Origin: Ruminococcus sp.
Lineage (GTDB): Bacteria > Bacillota > Clostridia > Oscillospirales > Ruminococcaceae
Direction: 5' to 3'
Assembly: GCA_021200415.1 (NCBI GenBank)
Contig: JAJQGO010000013.1
Location: 206,016-270,015, forward strand
DNA: 64,000 nt
Below the pieces are notes generated by a model, which was given only the letters and a program-made list of their open reading frames with translations, was not told the origin of the DNA and made no database searches. The translations under genes and the position numbers were made by a program. Positions 23,869-26,860 of the stretch are shown piece after piece; the first letter of the stretch is position 1; each line of letters starts with the position of its first letter.

Positions 23869-23901
23869 ATATATTTTCAAATGCTTAAAGGAGGACTAAC
23901 T

Positions 23902-24429
23902 ATGAAAACTACTATTACAGCTAAAAAAATGCAGATTCCACAGAATTTCACCGAATACGCAGAAAAGAAAATTGACTCCAAGCTCAACAAATTCTTTGGC
24001 GATGAAGCTGAGGCGAAGATCGTTATTTCTGAAATCAAAAATCAGATTGTTATAGAGCTTACCGTCAGATACAACAGTATGCTGTTCAGAGCTGAACGCT
24101 CTGCTGTAGATAAAAATGCTGCTCTTGACGACGCAATTGATAAAATTATCAGACAGATTCGCAAAAACAAAACGAAAATTGAAAAGCGCCTCAAGGATAC
24201 CGCATTTAAGGATGCCTTCGCTGAACCAATTCCGGAACAGGTGGATTACGAGGTTATCAAGCACAAGAAATTCACAATGCGCCCTATGGATATTGACGAG
24301 GCTATCCTCCAGATGAATATGCTCGGACACAGCTTTTTCATGTTCACCAATGCGGCTTCCGGCGAAATAAACGTCGTTTACAAGCGCGCGGAGGGAAATT
24401 ACGCAGTTCTTGAACCTGACAATGGCTAA
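23902..24429 (+). CDS. hpf: Ribosome hibernation promoting factor, long form
   Basis: A 175-residue HPF/RaiA protein. The N-terminal ribosome-binding domain (MKTTITAKKMQIPQNF to about 100) is followed by a C-terminal dimerisation domain (VIKHKKFTMRPMDIDEAILQ). The long form joins two 70S ribosomes into an inactive 100S dimer in resting cells. The start at 23902 is preceded by AAAGGAGG. A promoter within an inverted repeat precedes it and a hairpin follows. Confidence 0.95.
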   Translation: MKTTITAKKMQIPQNFTEYAEKKIDSKLNKFFGDEAEAKIVISEIKNQIVIELTVRYNSMLFRAERSAVDKNAALDDAIDKIIRQIRKNKTKIEKRLKDTAFKDAFAEPIPEQVDYEVIKHKKFTMRPMDIDEAILQMNMLGHSFFMFTNAASGEINVVYKRAEGNYAVLEPDNG

Positions 24430-26029: not shown

Positions 26030-26650
26030 AGCGCACAAAAAACCTCAGGATAACCTGAGGTTTAGTTTCTATTAAATTGTATTAAGATTAAGCGACTTTC
26101 ATCACTTAGCTAAAGTTCCCTGTGGACTCACCCTTTCAGATTATTCTTTAATATAGCACCTGAAAAACATTTTCATAATATCACATCTTTCATCAATGAT
26201 ATATATAATATTCATTATCCATTGGTTTCACCTTTTTAAGCTTATTTTAAATCACTAAAAAGCTATTTTCTCATCGGACTCACCTTTATTCGGATTTTTC
26301 AAGCTATTTTCAGCTATTTATCTAAAGACTCAATGTCGTAATTTCAGATAATCCTGTATCCCAAAGAGTTTAGAATAGAAGCCGAAATCCTATACAGCGA
26401 TTTACGTCCGCATCGCATTATAATTAACATTCAACATCACTTATATGGATCAGATTCTTAAAAATCTATAATCCCAAAAACAATATCAATTACTCTGCAA
26501 GCCCGCCGGCTTCACGCTGCTGTTCTTCTGTTCCTTCCATTGGACTCACTCACCTTTCCGCCAATTTCATTTACATTGAGGTTTCCCTCAGACCAAGTAA
26601 ATATAGCTTTGGAAGTTTTGCTCATCTTCGAGCTTTCTCTCCCTTTCCTT
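26030..26650 (-). ncRNA. Candidate large structured non-coding RNA (about 610 nt)
   Basis: A strong promoter (TTGACA, 17 bases, TATTAT) at 26685-26657 reads leftward, and a terminator (CCTCAGG/CCTGAGG then TTTTTT) ends the unit near 26035. No coding frame above 37 codons lies between. The transcript holds many local helices: TGAGG-GAAA-CCTCA enclosed by ATTTAC/GTAAAT, AAGCC/GGCTT, GGAT/ATCC around AGATT/AATCT, GCGAT/ATCGC, CTGTAT/ATACAG, TTTCAG/CTGAAA and AAGTGA/TCGCTT. The motif AAAGGTGAGTCC recurs in four variants. Size and build recall OLE, ROOL or GOLLD RNAs, but I cannot assign it to a class. Short peptides behind the repeated GGTG motifs remain an alternative. Confidence 0.5.
26037..26063 (-). 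terminator. Terminator of the minus-strand RNA unit
   Basis: AACCTCAGG/CCTGAGGTT with a TTAT loop, followed on the minus strand by TTTTTTG. Confidence 0.8.
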
Positions 26651-26656
26651 GACTAT

Positions 26657-26685
26657 ATAATACCACACCCTTAGTTGAATGTCAA
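26657..26685 (-). promoter_or_regulatory. Promoter of the candidate RNA
   Basis: TTGACA (26685-26680) and TATTAT (26662-26657) with a 17-base spacer; transcription should begin near 26650. Confidence 0.75.
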
Positions 26686-26860
26686 TAGTTTTTTTGAGAT
26701 TTTTTGAGAAATTTTGTGGTTTCTATGTATTGCACAAAACACTGTGTCATTTTTTGTGCAGTTTTACATACAATCTTTCAGGGAATATTTACCTGTTTTA
26801 ATACCGTGAATTTTGAATATCCTAAATATAACATTAACATGAGTTTAACCCCGTAATATG

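Follow-up and report, generated by a model that had tools for sequence, protein, structure and literature searches.

The window, by which we mean the whole 64,000-nucleotide stretch of Ruminococcus sp. DNA that was analysed, carries on its minus strand a unit of about 615 nt that runs from a promoter to a terminator and has a V-type ATPase gene cluster and a PF06541 gene as its neighbours. All features of the RNA described below lie on this strand.

A promoter-to-terminator unit and its surroundings

The promoter, TTGACA-17-TATTAT (26657..26685), matches 11 of the 12 consensus positions at a spacing of 17, with a TG ahead of the second hexamer, and the pattern TTGAC-N16-18-TANNNT was found in 82 of 85 homologous RNAs. 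The intrinsic terminator (26036..26063) consists of a 10-pair hairpin (26063-26040) followed by T's; a stringent automated criterion recognised terminators in 52/82 homologues, and inspection by eye of 42 homologue rows showed one in 35. The longest minus-strand ORF within the unit has 37 codons (26625-26512) and was rejected as a conserved gene, since only 7 of 84 relatives keep this frame open. An earlier note on this DNA had described a near-consensus minus-strand promoter, a strong terminator and no reading frame over 37 codons, all of which is borne out.

A second strong hairpin with a T-run was observed just past the RNA's terminator, at 26023-25997 of the window, between the RNA and the convergent PF06541 gene, and it is possibly a terminator shared by the two. 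Just upstream of the RNA's own terminator, a ACAAUUGAAUA-like stretch recurs in many relatives, and it is present also in L016, L027 and L032, where no 3' hairpin was found; no pairing partner for it was found.

The set of 85 homologues leaves out identical copies, loci L069-L101, and L019 and L029, in which the script found no anchor. Since near-duplicates remain in the set (e.g. L102/L103 and L032/L130), 39 cluster representatives were also used. Among the 85 loci, the nearest upstream gene is a divergent DUF1292-type gene in 43 (Pfam was run on one representative), and the nearest downstream gene is a convergent AAA ATPase in 37, others varying. The single ATPase representative matched the Pfam families AAA and RuvB_N, and we take this gene to be RarA/MgsA. 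Neither gene is a neighbour of the RNA in the window. Because the nearest genes differ between loci, a trans-acting unit is favoured, and comparison of the loci suggests that the RNA has been relocated as an intact unit that does not depend on a particular gene.

In 13 of the 20 relatives scanned, a 6S RNA gene (RF00013) lies upstream and divergent within the same 3-8 kb locus (L004, L010, L017, L021, L030, L054, L055, L102, L105, L107, L108, L129 and L138); in the window's genome the 6S RNA gene is about 106 kb from the RNA. A plus-strand gene of the window (23881-24429), about 1.6 kb past the RNA's 3' end and thus on the opposite strand, encodes a ribosome hibernation-promoting factor with a Ribosomal_S30AE and a C-terminal domain. 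Another gene lies closer to the RNA, and this one does not appear in the listed clusters of neighbouring genes in relatives.

Helices and covariation

None of 20 dinucleotide shuffles folded as well as the 619-nt RNA itself (z = -3.0). P1 (26611..26643) is a 5' hairpin shortly past the inferred start, identified by folding leaders; a hairpin of this type formed in all 33 leaders folded, with differing sequences and a mean z of -2.9 against mononucleotide shuffles. It is followed by P2 (26569..26602), in which AUUUAC/GUAAAU closes UGAGG-GAAA-CCUCA across an internal loop, UUGG. The earlier note had picked out this GAAA-capped hairpin closed by a second helix, and it covaries in relatives: 8 of its 11 pairs have changes on both sides, and its two helices are paired in 99.8% and 95.7% of cells. 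Hairpin 3 (26495..26522), CAGCA..UGCAG around AGCC-GGCG-GGCU, lies inside the short reading frame ORF1 described below, with 85.0% and 89.6% of cells paired in its two helices; the outer helix has one mismatch in the window, and by eye the hairpin is altered or lost in several divergent members in which ORF1 is still open. Taken together, P2 and hairpin 3 have compensatory changes at 13/20 pairs in 80 distinct sequences, and on all five measures 0 of 500 shuffles were as good, a result that leans towards structure because the alignment was fitted to the model. Alignment A1 leaves out L032, L039, L053 and L057 for their insertions. These four exceed the 129-nt model by 16-49 nt in the 5' domain, with the extra bases mainly in the apical loop of P2, whose tip therefore tolerates inserts.

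The P3/P4 domain (26415..26493) consists of a long helix, beginning at the stop codon of ORF1, and the hairpin GGGAUUAUAG..GAUCC enclosed by it, where 13 of the 20 pairs in helices 1-2 have changed on both sides yet are kept. Over the whole middle domain (P3, P4 and smaller helices), 14/35 pairs are compensatory and 95.7% of cells are paired, and again none of 500 shuffles did as well on any of the five measures; alignment A2 was made without L010, L023, L039, L053 and L057. P6 (26318..26358) is a highly conserved block, UACAGGAUUAUCUGAAAUU.CGAC..GUCUUUAGAUAA. Its helices 4-5 are paired in 96.8% and 100% of cells and are almost invariant, with no pair showing compensatory change, so that covariation does not probe the pairing of this block. 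P6 was not recognisable in the short forms L121, L123 and L125, in which ORF1 and one of the modules described below remain.

The last covarying element is the 3' hairpin AAGUGA-UGAAAG-UCGCUU (26090..26107), with compensatory changes at 3 of 7 pairs and 99.6% of cells paired. On four of the five measures 0/500 shuffles were as good, and on the fifth, which counts further pair types, 499/500 were. The hairpin was not found in L016, L023, L027, L032 and L037, and alignment A3 omits these five and L017. In XPD3002 (L030/L045) the 3' domain is repeated. By eye, UUGGACU in P2 could pair with AGUCCAA in the modules, a possibility that is inconsistent in divergent members. The covariation check proposed in the earlier note was thus run, with P2, P3, P4 and the 3' hairpin passing, and the covarying helices and the fold agree with that note's description of a large structured RNA.

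Micro-ORFs and their ribosome sites

ORF1 (26490..26540), recognised by conservation of its frame, has 16 codons and reads MEGTEEQQREAGGLAE before its stop. A 14-21 codon ORF1 follows P2 in 85/85 homologues (84 by script and L126, with 20 codons, by eye), with a strong ribosome site ahead of it in all homologues examined. Starts among the 84 are ATG (77) or GTG (7), and stops are TAA (49), TGA (32) or TAG (3). Within the first 13 codons a stop occurs in none of the 84 in frame 0, in 31/84 in frame +1 and in 68/84 in frame +2. Closure at 13-21 codons is seen in all 39 representatives; the two other frames give 15 and 8, and 500 shuffles never exceeded 16. Over codons 3-7, which are variable, stops occur in 0, 8 and 10 of the 39 in the three frames, and shuffles never gave fewer than 4. 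The stop is kept despite differing distance and surroundings, and hairpin 3 is read in a shifted frame with early closure retained in L026, L110, L120 and L124 (by script) and L126 (by eye).

The peptide itself is less clearly held. In 77 RNAs (of the 84, after exclusion of frameshifts, indels and L104) its pN/pS is 0.79, and the off-frame values are 0.84 and 0.91; for 17 divergent RNAs the figures are 0.75 in frame and 1.01 and 0.61 off frame. Net charge is negative in 73 of the 84 peptides, and synonymous swaps occur, such as TCT/AGT for serine. Conservation of ORF1 is partly structural because it overlaps hairpin 3 and P3. We read these patterns as a constraint that would act mainly on the start, the openness and the stop of the frame, and less on the peptide made.

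The ORF1 ribosome-binding site, GGAAAGGUGAGUGAGUCCA (26541..26559), is an extended complement of the standard 16S 3' tail. For duplex energies the tail was assumed, as no rRNA was found in the genomes searched: a search for 16S rRNA in two nearly complete genomes (G034 and G246) gave no match, and rRNA seems to be missing from these assemblies. With the tail that we presume, GGAUCACCUCCUUUCU, the ORF1 site has an energy of -18.4 kcal/mol, and none of 343 genes of the same genome, each scored at its best start, is as strong (best, -18.1).

Downstream of the structured domain, the RNAs carry modules of the type AGGUGA-NN-CC-R-AUG, one to five per RNA, in 81/82 RNAs (L121, L123 and L125 were excluded from this count as no P6 was found in them). 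In the window, module 2 (26263..26287) comprises AAAGGUGAGUCCG and AUG AGA AAA UAG (ORF2, M-R-K-stop), and module 3 (26193..26235) comprises AAAGGUGAAACCA and the 9-codon ORF3, both identified from the module counts. Module 5 (26102..26136), supported by relatives, has AAAGG and GUG AGU CCA ... UGA, a possible 9-codon ORF5; the first base of its start is G, A or U in relatives and C in L043, and the GUG is too near AAAGG for an ordinary start. The 2.35-Mb genome has two exact copies of AAAGGTGANNCCRATG, and the RNA contains both.

The 82 RNAs hold 189 raw module sites, of which 21 are starts of ORF4, leaving 168. Most of these ORFs have 2-4 codons: 128/168 close within 4 codons and 164/168 within 12, as compared with 34% of the 1020 other ATGs in the RNAs that close within 4 codons. 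Among the representatives, 58 of 76 modules reach a stop within 4 codons; shuffles averaged 23.1 with a maximum of 38, and frame +2 gave 14/76. Frame +1 gave 53/76 because AUGA contains UGA, so only frame +2 and the shuffles are informative. AGA is the second codon in 96/168 modules and in 5/343 genes, and such an M-R module is present in 76 of the 82 RNAs. The products are often Met-Arg-x-stop, the commonest being MRI, MR, MRN, MRS, MRK and ME, and R. flavefaciens FD-1 (L017; named record L060) has five M-R modules besides ORF4.

Module sites, with a median of -10.9 kcal/mol on the assumed 16S tail, are not stronger than those of ordinary genes (-10.5), and any capture of ribosomes would therefore rest on their number and on ORF1. 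CC at -3/-2 is present in 163 of the 189 modules, a biased figure since the search rule asked for such bases; the conserved CC may extend pairing to GGAUC of the 16S tail with a one-base bulge. We rejected the module motif as a generic Ruminococcus ribosome site, as CC stands at -3/-2 in 4 of 343 genes.

ORF4, with its upstream region (26141..26190), was identified by ORF comparison and encodes MKMFFRCYIKE in the window; basic ORFs of this kind, with 7-12 codons, were found in 57/82 RNAs by a rule that set the permitted lengths and favoured a second codon of AAA, AAG or AGA. Net charge is positive in 57/57, which is partly built in by that preference. Its pN/pS is 0.65, compared with 0.82 and 1.00 in the other two frames, and this degree of peptide-level constraint favours a peptide role, against a reading purely through ribosomes. 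Over the micro-ORFs as a whole, frame-specific constraint is present and peptide constraint is weak. The earlier note's statement that the unit holds no gene is not supported, given ORF1 in all 85 homologues examined and further micro-ORFs in 81/82; the conservation is mixed, neither wholly coding nor wholly structural.

Distribution, identity and possible function

A covariance model of the 5' domain (R1) found the RNA in 99 of 125 Ruminococcus genomes and in 65 of the 68 of high quality, with one copy per genome except for two in G091; blastn with the RNA gave matches in 79/100 Ruminococcus genomes. Under strict filters, the covariance model had no match in 145 genomes from 104 other genera of the family. 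Three of the 26 Ruminococcus genomes without a match to R1 are of high quality. When 20 of the 26 were scanned with the P6 pattern, three matches at two mismatches appeared, which we judged to be chance as they had no RNA context. Of the 38 loci from a pattern scan of public genomes, 35 carry the name Ruminococcus, in most cases as R. flavefaciens or sp., and three come from metagenome bins labelled only Clostridia, Bacillota or Clostridiales. A phage or plasmid origin was rejected, as blastn of 50,697 phage and 72,556 plasmid records gave no match and viral contigs had 0 exact matches for three patterns.

No Rfam family, out of 4227 in Rfam 15, reached its gathering cut-off anywhere in the window, the criterion for membership being a covariance-model score at or above that cut-off. 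A lax search of the region (E up to 10) gave 12 sub-threshold matches, with no ROOL, OLE, GOLLD or raiA among them, and in the loci of 20 relatives the only matches were 6S, T-box and tRNA, none on the RNA. On these three scans we rejected membership in any Rfam family; the earlier note could place the RNA in no class, and its suggestion of a divergent ROOL, OLE, GOLLD or raiA member finds no support in them. A genome search for raiA also had no match, as did the controls, and is uninformative alone. We also rejected a stand-in for a missing housekeeping RNA, as canonical 6S RNA (RF00013) and tmRNA (RF00023) are both encoded elsewhere in the same genome, and neither covariance model matched the RNA itself.

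The RNA was not found in the papers searched, whose supplementary lists could still hold an unnamed entry. The main text of PMC11109978 has no occurrence of Ruminococcus, and that of PMC8040213, which reports 3161 candidates of 27-219 bases, has none of Ruminococc. The RNA is a family new to Rfam and absent from the literature searched. With a promoter, a terminator, covarying helices, genus-wide occurrence and no fixed neighbour, it would, going by sequence, class as a large structured stand-alone RNA, and in kind it is intermediate between the large ornate RNAs and the dual-function RNAs. Serial start-stop modules are, to our knowledge, a feature of neither.

ROOL, of about 600 nt, is similar in size and likewise a stand-alone structured RNA of Firmicutes and the rumen, but the present RNA has no covariance-model match to it, carries serial micro-ORFs, was found in genomes of one genus only, and has no blastn match in phage or plasmid records. 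The raiA/ModT RNA (RF03072) is also structured, stand-alone and from Bacillota, whereas this RNA does not match it, is longer, and was found in one genus. RNAIII, SgrS and SR1 are structured RNAs that also carry a small ORF; the present RNA has several ORFs in succession, many of them 2-4 codons long, and the copy number of the module changes. The two-codon ORFs of the lambda bar minigenes, which cause peptidyl-tRNA drop-off, resemble the modules in having a start, one or two codons and a stop, but in this RNA such ORFs are repeated inside a conserved structured RNA. 6S RNA and tmRNA, the latter of which engages ribosomes and has a short ORF, are stand-alone structured RNA genes as well, though both exist separately from this RNA in the same genome.

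As judged from these comparisons of sequence, the locus is a transcription unit of its own, conserved and structured, whose micro-ORFs are under constraint of frame. Our preferred reading, held tentatively and at slightly less than an even chance, is that it is a stand-alone, trans-acting structured RNA gene of Ruminococcus that would work through ribosomes, capturing or gauging them. The extended Shine-Dalgarno match at ORF1 would load 30S subunits strongly, and ribosomes would stop at the ORF1 stop codon, which is the foot of helix P3, so that translation and folding would be coupled and a ribosome at this stop could decide whether P3 forms. The modules, often continuing as AGA-x-stop, would cycle ribosomes through repeated starts and stops, and the RNA would either hold ribosomes (capture or parking) or read ribosome or initiation status. 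The RNA itself would be the output, since no gene was seen downstream within the transcript and most of the peptides show poor conservation. It is possible, if on balance doubtful, that this amounts to a new class of structured start-stop RNA, in which serial landing sites, each with an ORF of a few codons and an immediate stop, hold or gauge initiating ribosomes, tandem duplication of modules tunes the dose, and translation rather than its product is the function.

The lower in-frame pN/pS of ORF4, the positive charge of ORF4 and mostly negative charge of ORF1 and the serine swaps in ORF1 would also be expected of a polycistronic mRNA for functional micropeptides (an acidic 14-21-mer, a basic 7-12-mer and linkers) whose structure served only stability or translation control. 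We consider this rather unlikely, given that the pN/pS of ORF1 hardly separates the frames and in divergent RNAs falls between the two off-frame values, that five RNAs shift frame across hairpin 3 yet close early, that modules of 2-3 codons cannot encode a folded product, and that ORF4 was found in only 57/82 RNAs with a charge partly produced by the search. The size, the covarying helices, the promoter-to-terminator unit and the near-invariant P6 would also suit a structured non-coding RNA of the ROOL, GOLLD or OLE sort, a scaffold or multimer with incidental micro-ORFs. This is unlikely, as the openness and closure of ORF1 exceed the off-frame and shuffled controls, early closure of modules exceeds frame +2 and shuffles, the Rfam families of ROOL, GOLLD and OLE do not match, and L121, L123 and L125 keep ORF1 and one module without a recognisable P6.

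CsrB and RsmZ titrate a protein, and by the same logic GG-N5-7-CC-R-AUG motifs might bind a protein that recognises ribosome-binding sites, with no need for translation. The motif is indeed repeated, variable in copy number and rare in the genome, where few genes have CC at -3/-2, but early in-frame closure after it would go unexplained, and we regard such titration as very improbable. Least probable of all, with hardly any weight, is an attenuation or leader RNA of a neighbouring gene: micro-ORFs and structure are typical of leaders, and a same-strand gene of one family does follow beyond the RNA in 14/85 loci, but the RNA has its own terminator, the next gene 3' of it in the window is convergent, and the neighbours seen most often are an upstream gene that diverges from it or a downstream gene that converges on it, the others varying.

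The gene occurs genus-wide in a major fibre-degrading genus of the gut and rumen. The RNA blurs the line between non-coding RNA and mRNA, as lists of ORFs miss those of 2-21 codons and RNA-motif pipelines would class it as non-coding. If it is true that start-stop translation is its function, it would represent a new bacterial means to sense or buffer ribosomes.
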